Positions 10,895-20,182 of a stretch of 64,000 nt of DNA are shown in pieces. The DNA is taken from positions 1 to 64,000 of the forward strand of contig CALXLK010000009.1 of NCBI GenBank assembly GCA_944389175.1, given 5' to 3'. Positions within the stretch are counted from its first letter, which is position 1; every line of letters begins with the position of its first letter. Below the pieces are notes generated by a model, which was given only the letters and a program-made list of their open reading frames with translations, searched no databases and was not told the DNA's origin. The translations under genes were made by a program, and so were the position numbers. Source of the stretch: an uncultured Opitutales bacterium. Its GTDB lineage: Bacteria > Verrucomicrobiota > Verrucomicrobiia > Opitutales > Intestinicryptomonadaceae.

Positions 10895-12085
10895 GTGGCG
10901 CGCGCGAAGAAAAGTCTGTTTGAAAGGCTGGTGCCGCTTGGAATTCCCCTGGCGTGGCTGCAGCTTACCGGGGAGCGCAAGCGCTTCTTTGTGGCCATTG
11001 CAGGCATCACATTCGCAGTGGCAATGATGCTTTTCCAGATGGGGCTTCAAAAGGCGCTTTTCAAGCAGGTTGTAGGGCCGCTGCTGCTGCTTGACGGCGA
11101 CGTTGTCATGGTGGGGTACCACTACGAATATTTCGGCGTCGGGCGCGGATTTCCGATAGTGAGGCTCCACCAGAGCAAGGCTCTGCCCGAGGTCGCGGGC
11201 ACGGCGCCGATAAAGCTCGGGTGCGCGTCGTTTAAGAACGTCGAAAACGGGCGCGAGCGCGACATATTTCTCATAGCATTCGACCCCACAAAACCAACCT
11301 TCAGCGATCCCGAAATAAACAGGGCCGCGCAGGAGCTTAAAATGCGCGGGTGCGTCGCCTTCGACAGGCTTTCGCGCCAACAGTACGGCAATGTCTGCCG
11401 GGCTTTTGAAAAGGCGGGGAACCTAAAGACGGAAATAGCGGGGCACTCAGTCGACATAAAGGACCTCGTTTCGATAGGCGCGACGTTCGCCGCCGACGGC
11501 AACGTTCTCATGAGCATAGACACCCTCCTCGACATTTGGCCGAATGCAAAAGATTCGATAATAGACGTGGGCGTAATAAGGCTCAAGAAAGGTTCTGATC
11601 CCCAGAAAGCCGTAGATGCGCTAAAAAAGATGCTGCCCGACGACGTCAACATCATGACCAAAGCCCAATACATAGAAAACGAAAAGCAATACTGGGCCGT
11701 GCGCACCCCGATAGGTTTTGTAATAGGCGCGTCTATGGCCGTGGCCATTTTTGTCGGCGCGGTGATTGTCTACCAGATACTCTACACCGACGTTTCCGAC
11801 CACATACCCGAATACGCCACGCTCAAGGCGATAGGCTTTAGCGACGGGTTTTTCATATGGACTATCGTGCAGGAGTCCATCATACTGTCGGTGTCGGGGT
11901 TCGTGCCGGGAACGATTCTGGCGGCCGTTTTATACAAGCTTACGCGCGACATAGGCAACATGCCCACGTACATGTCGGCCTCGAGCCTGGCGATAGTTTT
12001 CGGGCTCACGGTGGGCATGTGCGTTATAGCGGGGCTCCTTGCAACCCGCAAGCTAAGGAAGGCAAATCCCGCGGATATTTTCTAA
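10895..12085 (+). CDS. DevC-like ABC exporter permease
   Basis: A 396-residue FtsX/MacB-fold permease that starts with GTG only 3 bp after the devB-like stop. The opening [18 protein letters not shown] is close to the conserved N-terminus of cyanobacterial DevC (PLAWLQLxxxKxR). There is one transmembrane helix at about 28-50, then a large periplasmic domain, then three helices in the last 140 residues ([54 protein letters not shown]). It should work with the upstream adaptor and an ATPase encoded elsewhere. argH follows only 7 bp later, so the three genes are probably cotranscribed, although argH is functionally unrelated. Confidence 0.83.
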
Positions 12086-12092
12086 TGCAAAG

Positions 12093-13514
12093 ATGAAAGA
12101 TAAAAAAAACACAGGCAAACAAACCCAGGCCACGTGGGGCGGGCGCTTCTCGCAGGCGCCGAGCCGTCTGATGCTCGAATTTGGGGAGTCGGTCTCCTTT
12201 GACAGCGCTCTGGCCGAATTCGACATACAAGGATCGATTGCGCACGCGCACATGCTTGCCGACGTCGGCATAATCGAAAAATCGGAATACTCGCAAATAA
12301 AGGCGGGGCTGGAAAAGATACTAAAGCTAATCCGCGCCGGAGAGTTCGAATGGAAGACCGAGCTTGAAGACGTGCACATGAACATAGAGCAGGCTCTCAC
12401 TAGCATGGTTCCCTGCGCCGCAAAGCTGCACACCGCGCGCAGCCGCAACGACCAGGTCGCCACTGACATGCGCCTGTTCTTCAAGTTCGCCGCCGACGAT
12501 ATGCAAAAGCGCCTCAAAAAGCTCATAGCCTCGTTGCTCGATCTTGCAAAAAAGAACATTTTCGTCTGCATACCCGGATATACGCACATGCAGCGCGCCC
12601 AGCCGGTGAGCGCCGCGCACCACATTTTGGCCTGGTGCGAAATGTTATACCGCGATATAGAGCGCTTCAAGTTCGTCTATGAGGGCGCGAACGTATCGCC
12701 TCTGGGCAGCGGCGCGATAGCGGGGACGACACTGCCCATAGACAGGGCCCTTTCCGCGAAGTACATGGGGTTCGTCGACGAAGACGGGGATCCGATTCTG
12801 ACGGGAAATTCCATGGACGCCGTCGCCGACAGAGACGTATTCTTTGAATTTGCCTTTGCCTGCGCTACAATGGGCGTGCATTTTAGCCGCATTGCCGAAG
12901 ACGTCATAATATGGAACACCTCGGAATTTGCCTTTGTGAAGCTTCCCGACGCGTTTACGACGGGTTCGTCGCTAATGCCGCAAAAAAAGAACCCCGACTC
13001 GTTTGAATTGATGCGCGGAAAGTCGGCGCGCATGATAGGCAGCCTTACGGCGCTTATGACGCTTGTCAAAGGCCTGCCGCTTACCTACAACCGCGATCTT
13101 CAGGAGGACAAGCCCCCGGTATTCGACTCGTTTAGACAGGCGCGCATGTGCATAGACGTTCTCACCGCCTGCGCGAAAGAGATAAAATTTAATGAAAAAA
13201 AATGCGCCGAGGCCGTCGGCGACCCGCTCCTGCTTGCCACCGACCTGGCCGACTATTTTGTAAGGCGCGGCGTGCCCTTTAGAAAGGCGCACCACATGGT
13301 AGGCGAGATAGTTGCGCTATCGGAAAAGACGGCAACGCCCATAAACAAACTTTCCGACGAGCAAGTATTTGCCATATGCCCCGAGGCCTCTTCCGACTGG
13401 CGCGATGTGTTCGACCTCAAGCGCGCCTTTGCCATGAGGAAAGGCGTAGGCATGCCAAATCCAGAATTAATTGCCGAACAAATAAAAAATTTTTCCCAAT
13501 TAATTAAGCAATAA
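12093..13514 (+). CDS. argH: Argininosuccinate lyase
   Basis: A 473-residue enzyme of the fumarase/aspartase superfamily that cleaves argininosuccinate to arginine and fumarate, the last step of arginine synthesis. The N-terminal [10 protein letters not shown], the substrate-binding SRNDQVATD and the signature [12 protein letters not shown] (about 289-301, with the catalytic Ser) are all intact. Length is normal. The gene follows devC by 7 bp and ends in a strong terminator. No other arginine genes except the distant carA and carB are in the window. Confidence 0.97.
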
Positions 13515-13520
13515 AACATC

Positions 13521-13558
13521 AAAAAAGAAGCGCCCATATCGGGCGCTTCTTTTTTTTT
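13521..13558 (+). terminator. Terminator of argH
   Basis: A 10-bp stem, AGAAGCGCCC (13526-13535) with 13541-13550, has a 5-nt loop and is followed by T9. It sits 10-15 nt after the argH stop. Confidence 0.93.
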
Positions 13559-13559
13559 G

Positions 13560-13740
13560 CCCCGAACATCGGAGGGAAAAGAAGAGCAGGCAGAAACGTG
13601 GAGTGGTGAGGTGGAAGGAGAAAAAAAAGAGTAGTCAGAGAGAGTGCTTTGGTGGATGGGTGGGAGAAAAAAAAGGGGAAAAAAGGAAGTTAGAGGACAA
13701 AAAAGAAAGCCGAGAACGCCGCGCCAAAGCTGAAATATCT
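13560..13740 (+). repeat. Purine-rich intergenic block A
   Basis: About 180 bases of almost pure G and A on the plus strand, with very few C, between the convergent ends of argH and the DUF5696-like gene. It contains GTGGAGTGG (13598-13606), a word repeated exactly in blocks C (42311) and F (53431). The short reading frame across it is Lys/Glu/Arg low-complexity and not credible as a gene. Confidence 0.5.
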
Positions 13741-13760
13741 AATAGTTTGACGTTTCGTAA

Positions 13761-13791
13761 AAAAAACGCCGCCGAAAAGAATTCGGCGGCG
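13761..13791 (-). terminator. Terminator of the DUF5696-like gene
   Basis: A 10-bp stem, CGCCGCCGAA (13767-13776) with TTCGGCGGCG (13782-13791), is followed on the minus strand by eight Ts, about 30 nt after the stop codon. Confidence 0.92.
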
Positions 13792-13823
13792 AGCCTGCCA
13801 TCAAATTAACATGCCATAAATTT

Positions 13824-15665
13824 TTAGAACGGTTTCGGCTGGTATATTGAGCCGTCCGGATTGATGAGTATATAGCTTATGGGCTTAATCTGGGTGCCTT
13901 TGTAGTTGTAGGGGGCTTTATTATAGTTGCTTACTATTTTGCTGCCTTCGCCAAATTCCGTGACAAATACGTTGTCGGCTATCTCATCGTGGCGCGTCAT
14001 CATCTCCTTCTGCAGATGGCGCACGGGAACAAACTCGTCCCAGGCTCTTTTTATGCGGGGAACGTCGGCAAACTTGTAGGTGTAGAATATCGGCCGGCCG
14101 CCGAATTCGACAATCTTTAGGGAAACTTTCGGATCGACAATGCCGTCGCCCTCCATCCAACGCGGGTCTCCGCTTTTTTCTATCTTGTAAAGACATTTGC
14201 CCCTCGTGTGGTTCTGTGTGGCCCTGTCGGAATTGTAGAGGATAATTCCGTGATAGACGAGCTCCCAAAGGGGATATACGCCGGAGACGAGCTTGTTGTG
14301 CTTGTTCTCCCAGAGCATTTTCAAATCGCGCTCGATATAGTTGATGTAGTCGATATTGCCGGCGACATGGTCGTAGCCGGACTCGCTCGAGGCGCCGCCG
14401 AAGAGCTGCTTGCTCATCGCCAAAATCTTGTTTTGGTATTCGGCCATTTGCTCGGGCGTCGCCGGATGATTCGGATCGGCGCAACGGTTTGGATAAGTAG
14501 CCGAATAGACGTCTATGTAGTGGGGACCTTTCGCCCCCAAGGCGGCCATTTTTTTGAGCTCCTGGGGAACCCAGTTGTGCCAAGAGCAGTTCTGGCAGAC
14601 ATTAAAGCAGTTGCCGCCCGCCCACAGGCCGCCGCTCTCGTCGAGCGACCCGTCGGCTCTCTTGCCCACCCAGTCGGGATTCCACATCGGCGAAACGGTG
14701 TAGCCGTCGGTATTGGTTGCATGCAGGGTAAATTGGAAGCCGAGATCCTGAACCTTCTTGCAGAGTCTCTTAAGCCCTTCCTCTCCCCCGATTGTCTCCT
14801 CTACGGGAAAATGCTGCGGAGTGCGGCCGTCGTAGCCGCCGTAATTCCACCCCGCCGACACTATCGTAACCTTGTCGACGCCGGAATCCTTTATGGCCTT
14901 GGCAAATTCTTCAGAAACGCCAAAGGGCATGTGCACAATAACGGGAAGCTCGTTTTCCTTCGTAAAGTTGATGCGCTTTTCCGAAATCGGTTTTGCGCCG
15001 TGGGTTTGGATTCTTACAACTATGGACTCGCAAAGATAGTCAAGCTGCGGAAAATCCTTTATTCTGTCCTTAATTGTGCGAACGGCGCCGCTTTCGAGCT
15101 GGTACTTTTGGTATCCTTTTGCCATTCCGTTGTAGTCGGCGTCCTTGCCGGAGAGCATGTTGAATTCAACGACGATATCGTCGTAAATGGGCATGTACTT
15201 ACGCACAGTATCAAACGTGACGCGCGGATATATCTCGTACTTGCCGTTCTTTGCCTCCACAATGATTGTGAAATCGAAACGGTAGGTCTTCATGTGGCCC
15301 CAGAACATCTTGTCGCCCTTCTTCATGCCAAAAATCGGCATTAGGTGGCGCCAGCGGCTATAAAAGCCGTTGTCCTTGTCGAACTTTCCGTAGGTGCCTC
15401 GGGGCATAATCCAGTACCCCTCGTCGCCCTTATTTGCTTTGGCAAACTCGGGAACGATATCTATGCACGACATATCGTCGGTTATCTGAGACTTGGGAAT
15501 GACAAGCCTAAACTTATCTGGCGCCACTTTCTCAAGCTCCACCGTTTTTGTCTTAACGGTTTTATTCCTCCCCTGCACATAATGAGTGCGCACTTGGGCC
15601 GTCTCGGCAAACAGCGCCGCCGCCGCGAAACAGGCCGCCAACATAGATAATAGTATTTTCTTCAT
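13824..15665 (-). CDS. Exported DUF5696-like putative glycoside hydrolase
   Basis: A 613-residue secreted protein. Residues 1-20 are a signal peptide (KKILLSMLAACFAAAALFA). The first 240 residues look beta-rich. The rest looks like a TIM-barrel enzyme: VTIVSAGWNYGGYDG, then LGFQFTLHATNTDGY and GPHYIDVYSATYPNRC, each a strand followed by acidic or aromatic residues as in retaining hydrolases. I associate this pattern with DUF5696, distantly related to the GH101-type endo-alpha-N-acetylgalactosaminidases, but the assignment is from memory of the family and is moderate. The Cys pairs around 330-370 suggest disulfides or metal binding. The gene is monocistronic with a strong terminator. Function is best stated as probable glycan hydrolysis in the periplasm or outside. 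Confidence 0.68.
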   Translation of the reverse strand: MKKILLSMLAACFAAAALFAETAQVRTHYVQGRNKTVKTKTVELEKVAPDKFRLVIPKSQITDDMSCIDIVPEFAKANKGDEGYWIMPRGTYGKFDKDNGFYSRWRHLMPIFGMKKGDKMFWGHMKTYRFDFTIIVEAKNGKYEIYPRVTFDTVRKYMPIYDDIVVEFNMLSGKDADYNGMAKGYQKYQLESGAVRTIKDRIKDFPQLDYLCESIVVRIQTHGAKPISEKRINFTKENELPVIVHMPFGVSEEFAKAIKDSGVDKVTIVSAGWNYGGYDGRTPQHFPVEETIGGEEGLKRLCKKVQDLGFQFTLHATNTDGYTVSPMWNPDWVGKRADGSLDESGGLWAGGNCFNVCQNCSWHNWVPQELKKMAALGAKGPHYIDVYSATYPNRCADPNHPATPEQMAEYQNKILAMSKQLFGGASSESGYDHVAGNIDYINYIERDLKMLWENKHNKLVSGVYPLWELVYHGIILYNSDRATQNHTRGKCLYKIEKSGDPRWMEGDGIVDPKVSLKIVEFGGRPIFYTYKFADVPRIKRAWDEFVPVRHLQKEMMTRHDEIADNVFVTEFGEGSKIVSNYNKAPYNYKGTQIKPISYILINPDGSIYQPKPF

Positions 15666-16025
15666 AAACGTTCCTTTTAAAAGAGCAGTTAAAGCTAATA
15701 TATTTTCCTCAAACGTTCAAGAACAATAAAACAATAAAAAAAGCGGTATTTGCCAGGCTTTCCACGGATAAAAAAATTTTCTTCCATTTACGGGCGCCAT
15801 TCAAAGATTCCGCGCAACTAAAAGAAACCATAAAGGGTAATTAGGAAAGCCCGCGTATCTAACTTTAACAACTCAAAGAACATATCGCTGCATCGACAAA
15901 GGCAACGCCCGATAAAAACACGGCTTTTTTCCTATTTTTCCAACCGCCTTTAAAACCAATAAACTATTCAAAAAAAAATACGTTGGCGAAGATATCCCCG
16001 GCAAAAAATTCCTGTTGAGAGGCAA
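15666..16025. other. AT-rich gene-free stretch upstream of the DUF5696-like gene
   Basis: I see no ORF with coding character. It must hold the promoter of the minus-strand DUF5696-like gene. No clear -35/-10 pair or operator stands out. The stretch from here to 16463 is the longest AT-rich gap of the window. Confidence 0.45.
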
Positions 16026-16188
16026 AAAAATCGGTATTGGTTTCCCAATACCGATGCCCTTATCAATAATAACCTATATATGATTAACTAACTAAACTAA
16101 ATTCTTTAAAGCCCCGATTTCTCTATCGGAAGCTTTGCCCCTCCGCTTAATATGGTTGCATTAACGCATAAAATTAAACTGCTGTCAA
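16026..16188 (-). ncRNA. Candidate small RNA with its own promoter and terminator
   Basis: On the minus strand, TTGACA (16188-16183) is followed after 17 nt by GTTAAT (16165-16160), a plausible -35/-10 pair. The predicted start is near 16152. The transcript would end at a very strong terminator: an 11-bp stem (16030-16040 with 16045-16055), a 4-nt loop and T7. In between is a second hairpin of about 11 bp with one bulge (AAAG-TTCCGAT paired with ATCGG-GG-CTTT, around 16110-16135). That gives an RNA of about 125 nt. There is no ORF inside. The SUF operon upstream has its own terminator, so this hairpin needs another transcript to explain it. I recognise no known RNA family. Confidence 0.4.
16030..16055 (-). 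terminator. Strong orphan terminator
   Basis: A perfect 11-bp stem (16030-16040 with 16045-16055), loop TTTC, followed on the minus strand by seven Ts. No protein gene ends here; the nearest upstream gene, sufD, ends 410 bp away and has its own terminator. Confidence 0.88.
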
Positions 16189-16409
16189 CAATAAAATCAA
16201 AGAAATACAACTTTTTTCTAAAAATCCCCAAAACGCGCTGTTTTAGCGGATTTCATTGAATAAAAGCTATACAAATAAATAGTATGGTACGGGCATACAA
16301 AAACATTTTTCCTTCAAAACGCGTTTTTCTTTGGAATAATTGTGAAAACAAGAATAAATGCCCCAAGAGCCCAAGACCCTGGTTTTTTTTAAGCGCCGAA
16401 ATTATTTGC

Positions 16410-16437
16410 CAAAAAATCCCGAAGAAAAATCGGGATT
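16410..16437 (-). terminator. Terminator of the SUF operon
   Basis: An 8-bp stem, AATCCCGA (16415-16422) with TCGGGATT (16430-16437), is followed on the minus strand by a T6 tract. It lies 27 nt past the sufD stop. Confidence 0.85.
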
Positions 16438-16463
16438 CTTAGAAAGAAAAACTTGCCAACATT

Positions 16464-17627
16464 CTATAGCGCGCGCAGCTTTAACCCGTCGGGCAGGAGG
16501 GCGAAAGTAGTTGCGGCAAAGCTTTCAACTATCATTTCTCGCGCGATATCCAGGGGAAGCCCGCGCTGGCGCATGTAAAAAAGCTCTTCGGCATCGGGTT
16601 CGGCGACGGCGCAGCCGTGGGAGCACTCAACGTCGTTTGCGCATATTTCAAGTATCGGCGAGGCCTGGGCCAAGGCATCCCTATTTAAAAGCAGGGCGCG
16701 GCAACTTTGGTAGGCCTGTGTTTTCTGCGCCTGTTCGCACACGTCGACAAGGCCGGTGAACGCCAATGCCGACGAGTCGTCGAGGGCGGCCTTTACCGCC
16801 AGGTTGCTCTTCGATGAGCCAACCCTGTGAATTTGCTTTGTCCTCAGGTCGGCGACCGTATCGCCCGAGGCTTTTATAAAGGCGCGGCTGTCCAGACTTA
16901 CCCCGCGCCCCAAAATGTTAAAATTGCGCTCGCTCCTCGAATCGGCCAGCCCCTCCTGCGACATTGCATCGACTACGCTTGAAGAGTCGCCCAAGTAAAA
17001 ATCCTCCCTCTCGAACATGAGCGCAGCCCTGTCGGAAAACTTCGCCTGCGCGTACTCAAGCGACGCCCCCTCTTCAAGCTCAAAGCCAAACCTCGACGAT
17101 GAAAGAGAGCCCCCGAACGTAATAGACGTCTTGTTTAGGCGCAACTTTGAATTTTTCTTAAGCAGAAAATACGCGCCCGCAGCGCTTATGTGGGCATTTG
17201 AAAATACCGCCATGTCGAGCTCGACCGACGCGCCCTCCTCAATACACACGAAAACCCCGTCGCCCGCGCGAGTTGCCTCAAACATGTCCAGCTTGCCCGT
17301 CGCCGACATAAAAAATTCCTGGAGCCTGCGCGCATTTGCCGCGTACGCCTGGCCCATTGTCATTATCTGCGCGCCTTCCGGAACTTTCAAAATTCCCGGG
17401 CGCCCGTCGGAAAGGGTCAGCGCCACCCCGCCGAGCCCCTCTTTTATGAGGCGCGCCTTCTGGCACGGCTGGCCTTTGGGCGGCTGCGAAGATGCAAAAA
17501 AGGGCAAAAGGCCGTCAACGCCCCAGGCCTTCAAATTGGCAAAGCGCCAATACTCGTCCTTGCGGTGCGGAAACTCTATGTCGGCAAAGGCCTTCTTCGC
17601 CGCATTCGATATGTCGGACAAATCCAT
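16464..17627 (-). CDS. sufD: Fe-S assembly protein SufD
   Basis: A 387-residue right-handed beta-helix scaffold protein that partners SufB in the SufBC(D) iron-sulfur assembly complex. The N-terminus FPHRKDEYWRFANLK is the usual SufD opening (small helical region reading ExWRxTxL in others). The C-terminal NDVECSHGCAVAEPD carries the His that corresponds to the conserved SufD histidine at the SufB-SufD interface, followed by LFYMRQRGL. Its ATG overlaps the sufB stop by one base (TGATG), so translation is coupled. It is the last gene of the operon and is followed by a terminator. Confidence 0.93.
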   Translation of the reverse strand: MDLSDISNAAKKAFADIEFPHRKDEYWRFANLKAWGVDGLLPFFASSQPPKGQPCQKARLIKEGLGGVALTLSDGRPGILKVPEGAQIMTMGQAYAANARRLQEFFMSATGKLDMFEATRAGDGVFVCIEEGASVELDMAVFSNAHISAAGAYFLLKKNSKLRLNKTSITFGGSLSSSRFGFELEEGASLEYAQAKFSDRAALMFEREDFYLGDSSSVVDAMSQEGLADSRSERNFNILGRGVSLDSRAFIKASGDTVADLRTKQIHRVGSSKSNLAVKAALDDSSALAFTGLVDVCEQAQKTQAYQSCRALLLNRDALAQASPILEICANDVECSHGCAVAEPDAEELFYMRQRGLPLDIAREMIVESFAATTFALLPDGLKLRAL

Positions 17628-19036
17628 CAGCCCACGCTCCCTTCCATCTGCAAGTCTATCAGCCTCCGCAACTCGACGGAATACTCCATCGGAAATTCCT
17701 TTACCAAGTCGTTTACAAAGCCGTTTACCGAAAGGCTTACGGCCTCCTGCTCGCTCAAGCCGCGCTGGCGCATGTAAAAGATCTGCTCTTCGTTTATCTT
17801 GGAAACGCTCGCCTCGTGCTGCACGCTATTGTTCTCCCCGCCGCACACAACCGCAGGATACGTGTCGGTGCGCGAATTGGCATTTATCAGAAGCGCATCG
17901 CAAACGGTGTTGTTCTTGCAGCCGGAGGTATTCTTTGCCATATATACAAGCCCCCTGTAGGAGGCCCGCCCGCTGCCGATGCTCACCGATTTCGACGTTA
18001 TGTTCGACGTCGTGCCGCTTGCCAGATGTATCATCTTCGCGCCGGTGTCCTGGTGCTGCTTCGTAGTCGCAAGAGCTATCGAGACTACTTCGCCGCGCGC
18101 GCGCGCGCCCTTGAGAATGACGGCCGGGTACTTCATGGTTATGCCGCTACCTATGTTGCAGTCGACCCAGCGTATTTGGGCGTCCTCCTCCGCCATGCCG
18201 CGCTGCGTCACCAGGTTAAAGACGTTGTCCGACCAGTTTTGCACCGTCACATACTGTATCTTTGCCCCCTTTAGCGCCACCAGCTCAACGACGCCCGAAT
18301 GCAGCGTGCCGGTCTCAAAGCGCGGCGCCGTGCAGCCTTCCATATACATCAGTTCCGCACCTTCGTCGGCTATTATGAGCGTGCGCTCAAATTGCCCGAA
18401 ACTCTCGGCGTTTATTCTAAAGTACGCCTGCAACGGCTGCTTTAACTTTACACCCTTGGGCACATACACAAAGCTGCCGCCAGAAAATACGGCACTGTTG
18501 AGCGCGCTGTACTTGCTGTCGGATATCGGTATTACCTTGCCGAAATACTTCTTGAAAAATTCCGGATACCGGCGCATGCCCTCCGTAGAATCGCAAAAAA
18601 TTACGCCGTCCTTGGCGAGGTGCTCCTTCATGTTGGTGTACGCCGACTCGGAATCAAACTGCGCGTCTACTCCCGCCAAAAAAGCCCTCTCCTGCTCGGG
18701 AACGCCCAGGCGCTCGAACGTCTGCTTTACGTCGTCGGGCACTTCGTCCCAAGAGCGCTTCTTCTGCTGGCTCTTGGCCAGATAATAGCGTATCTTGGAA
18801 AAATCAAGCTCGTCGAGCTTCTTCGGCGCCCAATGCGTGGGATTCGGCATCTTCTCAAAGGCCTTCAGCGCCGAAAGCCTAAAATTTAAAACCCATTCGT
18901 CTTCGCCCTTTACCTTGGAAATGTAGCGGACGACGTCCTCGTTGAGACCAACGCCGGCATCATAGGCGTAGTCCTCGGCGTACTTAAAGTCGCCGGCGCT
19001 GCGGTCCACATCAAATGTGTCTTGCCCCTGCTGCAT
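17627..19036 (-). CDS. sufB: Fe-S assembly protein SufB
   Basis: A 469-residue SufB, the main scaffold on which Fe-S clusters are built. It shows the expected N-terminal helical part ([16 protein letters not shown]), the long parallel beta-helix region, and the C-terminal [24 protein letters not shown] block shared by all SufB proteins. NNTVCD and the preceding segment match the region of the essential cysteine. Length is normal. It lies 1-2 bp after sufC and overlaps sufD by one base. Confidence 0.96.
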
Positions 19037-19037
19037 A

Positions 19038-19775
19038 TTATTTGAGCCAGTCGTAGCCCTTCTGCTCCAACTCCACCGCCAGCTCGGGGCCTCCGCTTAA
19101 GACTATCTTTCCCCCGCTTAATACATGTATTCTGTCGGGCTTTATGTATTCCAAAAGCCTGTTGTAGTGCGTAATCAAAAGCATGCCAACCTCCGGCGAA
19201 CGCGCCGAGTTAACCCCTTGGGAAACTATGCGCAAAGCGTCGATGTCAAGGCCGCTGTCCACCTCGTCGAGAACGGCAAACTTGGGCTTGAGCATGAGCA
19301 TCTGCAGTATGTCGCAGCGCTTCTTTTCGCCTCCGCTAAATCCTTCATTGACGCTGCGGTTTGTGAAGTTTCTGTCTATCTTAAGCAAATCCATCTTCTC
19401 ATAGAGCTCCTTGTAGTAGGCGACCGGATTTACAGTTTTCCCCCCGCTCTGGCGCGCGTTAAGACATGCGCGAATGAAATTTGCAATGCTAACCCCCGGC
19501 ACGTCCACAGGATACTGAAACGACAGGAAGAATCCCATTCTGGCTATCTCGTCAACTGACTTGCCAACAATGTTCTCGCCGTCGAGCAACACCTCGCCCG
19601 AGGCTATCTTGTAGTCGGGATGTCCGGCTATCGCCTTCGAGAGGCTGCTCTTGCCAGTGCCGTTGGGCCCCATTATGGCGTGAACCTGACCGGCGGGAAC
19701 CTCCAAATTTAGCCCGTCTATAACCGTGCGGGAAGCGATCTTTACCACAAGGTTTCTTATCTCCAACCCCTTCAT
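19038..19775 (-). CDS. sufC: Fe-S assembly ATPase SufC
   Basis: A 245-residue ABC-type ATPase that drives conformational change of SufB/SufD during cluster assembly. Walker A is GPNGTGKSS (about 36-44), the Q-loop reads [13 protein letters not shown], the ABC signature is [13 protein letters not shown], and Walker B is [16 protein letters not shown]. These are all characteristic of SufC rather than a transporter ATPase. Its ATG overlaps the stop of the preceding gene in an ATGA arrangement, so both are translated together. sufS, sufE or sufU and sufA are not in this window. Confidence 0.97.
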
Positions 19776-20182
19776 TTCAAAGCCCTCTTCTTTTTCTTCG
19801 GCAAATAGGGCAAGACAAAAGCCTCCTTAAAGTCGTACCCGTCGTCGAAATCCTCTATTTTGTCGCCCTTGGCCGCGGCCAAAATCTGCGCGTCCACAAG
19901 GTTAAATACTATGTTGCCTATGTCGGAAGTCGATTTTACCCCCCATTCCCCGAGCAGCGTATAGGCCATCTGGCCGAAACTCTCAAGCGCAAACGCTCGG
20001 ATACCGTCGAGAAGCTCCGCGGCCGAAACATTCCTGTCTTTGCGGTTTTTATCCCGCGCGGCAAGCCGCTTTATGGTGTAGTCGAGCCCCATGCGCACAA
20101 AAATGTACGCACCGATAGCATAGCGCGAATCGTCCCTTACTATCGCCTCAAGCGCCTTTTGCAACTGCCTGTGAGCTCCCAT
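19772..20182 (-). CDS. Minf_1886-family conserved protein
   Basis: A 136-residue soluble protein that I recognise as the Minf_1886-type family, which I know mainly from Verrucomicrobia and Planctomycetes. Typical features are an N-terminal helix with DxRYxxxAYxFV (here [13 protein letters not shown]), a central helix ending FGxMAxTLLxEWG, an [13 protein letters not shown] block, and a C-terminal YDFKEAF followed by a basic tail. There is no signal peptide, transmembrane segment or Cys cluster. Function is unknown. It overlaps sufC by 4 bp (ATGA) and lies 30 bp after carB, so it is almost certainly co-expressed with the SUF genes. A role in Fe-S assembly is a guess from context. Confidence 0.78.

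Follow-up and report, generated by a model that had tools for sequence, protein, structure and literature searches.

A candidate small RNA gene with a conserved linker between sufD and a DUF5696 gene in an Opitutales genome

What is encoded by an A+T-rich stretch of about 800 bases (15666-16463) that separates sufD from a DUF5696 protein gene and contains a promoter-like sequence and a perfect 11-bp terminator but no recognizable gene? The stretch lies in a 64-kb piece of DNA (the window) from a 2.29-Mb genome, here called G000; within the stretch, only the candidate small RNA (sRNA) unit is explained. From its sequence and its conservation in one relative, G003, we consider it likely that the unit is an independently transcribed intergenic sRNA gene. 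The features discussed below are as follows.

16464..17627, minus strand: sufD, the upstream neighbour (PF01458; named sufD from its position behind sufC and sufB)
16410..16437, minus strand: separate terminator-like hairpin behind sufD, marking the boundary of the upstream operon (read from the sequence)
16160..16188, minus strand: predicted promoter, TTGACA-17-GTTAAT (from the sequence and from upstream alignment to G003)
16024..16153, minus strand: predicted non-coding RNA of about 130 nt (start placed from the promoter, end from the terminator)
16108..16136, minus strand: 5' bulged hairpin of 6 + 5 bp with one bulged U (from folding)
16056..16101, minus strand: conserved A+U-rich, weakly structured linker (identical to G003 over its 46 nt, and over 51 nt when the foot of the terminator is included)
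16030..16055, minus strand: perfect 11-bp intrinsic terminator hairpin with a GAAA loop (T-run at 16030-16024)
13824..15665, minus strand: DUF5696 protein gene, the downstream neighbour (PF18952; start 364 nt past the terminator stem)

The preliminary description had placed a promoter, a bulged hairpin and a perfect 11-bp terminator in this order on the minus strand, and all three were found in that order and at those positions, with the A+U-rich linker between bulged hairpin and terminator. RNA polymerase would start near 16153 on the minus strand, make about 130 nt and stop at the terminator. The stem of the terminator is perfect over 11 bp and is followed by the seven T's that had been reported (16030-16024, the last stem base being counted among the seven), and its fold scores z -5.9 (0/200 shuffles). 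In the 64-kb window, 3 distinct sites combine a perfect stem of 11 bp or more with a following T6; 30 dinucleotide shuffles contain none. Two more palindromes that are perfect and terminator-like, at 2366-2394 and 13524-13552, have T-runs on both strands. A laxer scan of 12000-20000 gave 19 terminator-like sites, compared to 11.9 (sd 3.6) in shuffles. The SUF operon had been credited with a terminator of its own, and this is visible at 16437-16410, though the scan of 12000-20000 omitted it. The candidate unit thus owns a terminator distinct from those of its neighbours.

Folding of the predicted RNA as a whole also departs from expectation (118-nt RNA, z -4.3, 0/200 shuffles; 130-nt RNA, z -3.9, 1/200 shuffles). 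At 16136-16108 the fold contains the 11 bp and one bulged base attributed to the 5' hairpin. Taken alone, this hairpin is weaker against shuffles, which match it in 5/1000 cases for a 31-nt piece, 17/1000 for 51 nt and 51/200 for a 61-nt piece. The fold of the linker is no better than that of shuffled sequences (633/1000).

The promoter is the weakest part of the unit. TTGACA (16188-16183), a 17-nt spacer and GTTAAT (16165-16160) are present on the minus strand as described, but the -10 hexamer lacks A at position 2, and because of this a simple promoter scan omits the pair. The TTGACA block and the sequence around it are kept in part in G003 (the local alignment scores 43, compared to 24.0, sd 4.2, reached by 1/2000 shuffles), and the distance from the start of TTGACA to the linker is 92 nt compared to 87 nt in the window. 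The -10 is not conserved; by eye, no good -10 lies 16-18 nt after TTGACA in G003. An imperfect promoter and a weak 5' hairpin are what would be expected if the locus were a spacer like any other that carried a terminator and hexamers resembling a promoter by accident, and promoter-like sites in 12000-20000 (10 compared to 6.1, sd 2.7, in shuffles) are within 1.5 sd of shuffles. We regard chance as extremely improbable, however, given a terminator of a kind seen in 0/30 shuffled windows and 51 identical bases in G003 despite other neighbours and only 70% identity in sufB.

This conservation is the main support for an sRNA gene. A DNA search of 14 genomes of the genus returned one strong match outside the window, an 81-bp segment of G003 with 94% identity to window positions 16027-16107, including 51 consecutive identical bases; strong identity between the two genomes is confined to these approximately 81 bp. 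Of the five differences within them, two form a double change in the terminator stem, one is in the loop and two lie at the 5' edge. G003 is the nearest congener of G000 by SufD (62% identical, clade support 100/100), and the DNA of the two genomes, where aligned, is 70% identical in sufB and 68% in sufD, so conservation of the unit's core far exceeds that of these protein genes. For independent sites differing at the sufB rate, the probability of 51 identities would be about 2e-8, a figure for a stretch picked after inspection. An exact 24-mer scan of genome contigs returned a single record, SUVO01000014.1 (Verrucomicrobiaceae bacterium SIG74), which is the same sequence as G003 contig C34 where compared.

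The preliminary description had named poor conservation of both hairpins in close relatives as grounds for rejection; the terminator hairpin is kept in G003, whereas the sequence of the 5' hairpin is not. The only difference in the terminator stem replaces a U-A pair of the window with C-G in G003 and so keeps the pairing. One double change proves little because only two sequences exist, and a pair-keeping double change is reached by 258/500 shuffles and has no statistical weight. The U-run of the G003 terminator is broken, with four T's followed by CA. At the position of the 5' hairpin, G003 has a different hairpin (58 nt, 6/1000 shuffles; 35 nt, 41/1000), which at most suggests conservation as structure rather than sequence. 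The 5' hairpin, being free in sequence, would probably serve only as a stability cap.

Conserved letters might also reflect a peptide. No complete frame of at least 4 residues begins inside the predicted RNA, and the earlier statement that it has no ORF is therefore true in substance. Among RNA-strand frames starting with ATG, GTG or TTG from 16189 to 16024, the sole complete ones of at least 4 residues are two of 4 residues each, both beginning in the promoter; a 32-aa frame from 16066 exits through the terminator, and a 41-aa frame whose start (16231) precedes the promoter stops at 16106. Both genomes also have an open plus-strand frame with the final residues KIGIG[FY]P[IM]PMPLSIITYI; it has 22 aa counted from a TTG in the window and 19 aa from an ATG in G003. 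The three base changes in the shared 18 residues amount to one silent and two conservative substitutions, as a tiny gene might show. Such a gene is nevertheless very improbable. The silent sites beyond the stem are all unchanged and identity extends beyond the stop codon for another 18 nt. The full frame lacks an ATG in the window, no ribosome-binding site is apparent by eye, and in G003 a terminator-like hairpin precedes the frame. Selection seems to act on the letters, not the residues, of this frame, and the candidate RNA is conserved as non-coding sequence, in two sequences only.

The genes around the unit differ between the two genomes. One flank of the unit in G003 holds a small opposing ORF and a GAF/sigma-54 activator gene, the other a BNR_2 gene transcribed away from the unit; neither suf nor DUF5696 genes were seen around it, and in G003 sufD lies on a different contig, C18, where by eye other ORFs follow it. 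The opposing ORF, of 61 aa, lies beyond the conserved part and runs towards the unit, with its own terminator-like hairpin (by eye) and no Pfam match. The regulator gene is past this ORF, more than 550 nt from the conserved part, and is unrelated to the DUF5696 gene. Because these neighbours differ, the unit is neither a leader nor a 3' UTR tied to a single gene, and it therefore behaves as a gene of its own. A conserved core amid other neighbours, with a linker identical over 46 nt, supports the small-RNA interpretation first offered for this locus.

The same comparison bears on a cis-acting role, in which the unit would control the DUF5696 gene as its leader or attenuator, the terminator being the off switch. 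That gene is on the same strand, 364 nt downstream of the unit, and the simple scan lists no minus-strand promoter between them. The element is conserved in G003, however, before a different downstream gene (the opposing 61-aa ORF, then the regulator gene), and the hallmark of a riboswitch or attenuator, the same kind of downstream gene in relatives, was not found between G000 and G003. We consider a cis-acting role quite unlikely.

How widely the unit occurs was assessed with R1, a covariance model of the conserved core. R1 found the core in 2/19 family genomes, with one match each in G000 and G003. It was not detected in the other 12 congeners, among which G004 is uninformative. G004, a single-contig genome of the same genus given as 95% complete, was matched nowhere, even where nearly all congeners were, and possibly has unusual sequence; because it matched in no search, SufD included, its misses tell nothing. 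At the Suf loci of 16 family genomes, G003 among them, the core model gave no match (about 1.5 kb on each side, where sequence was present). The order and phylum samples, which overlap with each other and were searched with stricter filters than the family, gave matches in 3/372 genomes, one a likely false positive, and in 2/387, namely G000 and the likely false positive G103; G003 was evidently not drawn in the latter. The G103 match (41.3 bits, with E 0.002 in a single genome and about 0.8 across all 372) falls on the final codons of a 409-aa ORF that looks porin-like by eye, together with the 3' flank and terminator of that ORF, and was judged false. In Rfam, the whole window gave two tRNAs only at the gathering cut-off, and permissive thresholds over 15660-16470 gave sub-threshold hits only, nothing credible. 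The unit is thus either narrow and lineage-restricted or diverged beyond detection elsewhere.

So narrow a distribution (2/19 family genomes), in differing contexts and with strong identity limited to about 81 bp, would also fit DNA without RNA function, either a small mobile or repeat-like element or about 81 bp recently transferred between the two lineages. Against this, a linker 20-mer is single copy in G000 at up to 3 mismatches, and R1 matched only once in each genome. The partly conserved TTGACA block lies outside the 81 bp, and the stem carries its double change. Phages and plasmids gave no match to the core, and the core 25-mer was not found in viral contigs. Two viral contigs with 19-mer hits were dismissed as chance-like, neither having the rest of the core. 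Taken together, we rate mobile DNA or recent transfer as rather improbable.

Returning to an sRNA gene, the anatomy of the unit is that of a trans-acting sRNA or a protein-binding RNA. The unit is probably a lineage-restricted sRNA of a known kind, trans-acting, whose family was not found in Rfam. The 46-nt linker is under very strong sequence constraint and would be the most likely working part; it may pair imperfectly with mRNAs in trans, or alternatively may be the landing site of an RNA-binding protein, putatively one with an RRM.

Hfq-dependent trans-acting sRNAs of enterobacteria consist of a hairpin, an unpaired conserved stretch and a terminator with a U-run. The candidate has the same three parts, but unlike in those systems an Hfq gene was not found in any of the 19 family genomes (G004 uninformative; controls positive in 5/14). 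An RRM_1 protein was found in 16/19 family genomes (controls 2/14), with one match over the cut-off each in G000 and G003; that of G000 has 171 aa (G000:C7:48223-48738; L088 1495-2010). UUAG is a common RRM target, and the linker contains three UUAG and four UAG, counts that same-letter shuffles reach in 1.5% and 2.2% of cases. One could imagine that the RRM protein of the genus binds the UUAG-repeat linker, either as its ligand or as a sponge site, which we consider unlikely.

A parallel exists in Bacteroides thetaiotaomicron. Its RRM-1 protein RbpB has the sRNAs FopS and GibS as ligands and prefers single-stranded sRNA parts, including those of a family with a single-stranded stretch before the terminator (PMC11697453). 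As FopS is described there, the candidate resembles it in having a single-stranded stretch before a Rho-independent terminator and a host with an RRM-1 protein, and differs in that its linker is single copy, whereas FopS is a 14-copy family in B. thetaiotaomicron (PMC11697453). The 5' hairpin is an extra element relative to FopS. The likeness is one of anatomy and host RRM only, and RRM binding is putative here. Rfam's BTnc060 (RF04184, a Bacteroides sRNA) aligns weakly over hairpin, linker and terminator, but membership is ruled out at 19.1 bits (E 2.1) against a cut-off of 228.9.

A single-copy candidate RNA that keeps its unpaired part identical despite changed neighbours offers a clear entry point to sRNA use in bacteria without detectable Hfq and with an RRM protein. 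If the UUAG linker does bind the RRM protein, it would be a founding example of an Hfq-free sRNA circuit built on an RRM protein in Verrucomicrobia-type bacteria, similar to RbpB-FopS of Bacteroides but not descended from it. In the titles and abstract beginnings searched, no dedicated study of sRNAs in this phylum was found, which is not proof of absence.

A limited examination of complementarity to mRNAs yielded no more than chance would. With 2 mismatches allowed, a 16-mer complementary to the linker matched only the locus itself in G000, and reversed-pattern controls gave equal counts in G000 and G003 (1 and 3). One G003 gene, L096, has 13 complementary nt just before its start codon, forming a duplex reached by 18/500 shuffled sRNAs; it has no G000 counterpart at 2 mismatches and no Pfam match. 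The best duplex among 79 ORF starts of the window, many of them not real genes, has -30.8 kcal/mol, a value without shuffle control, and is formed mostly by G-U pairing with the 5' part, which is not conserved.

Several minor observations concern G003. The activator protein beside its copy is 75-76% identical to those of other congeners compared to 69% to that of G000, and kinship therefore differs by gene. The activator is NifA-like by eye (Pfam: GAF, sigma-54 activator), but a link to nitrogen fixation is not supported: no nifH match exceeded the cut-off in 19 genomes (weak matches below it occurred in 17/19), and the activator's nearest relatives in ten other genus genomes, G000 included, stand beside other sequence. 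Among those ten, the core occurs only in G000, at another place. A sigma-54-like element, TGGCATAAAACTTGC, precedes the 61-aa ORF, divergent from the activator gene (G003:C34, about 31.8-32.1 kb); the pattern was not found in the 700 nt preceding the activator's nearest relatives in the same ten genomes. Finally, a dispersed G003 repeat on five contigs (L033-L037) contains TTTAGTTTAGTTAGT followed by CAAAG and has 15 nt in common with the linker; considered as a relative of the sRNA, it was judged a separate repeat family, probably REP-like.
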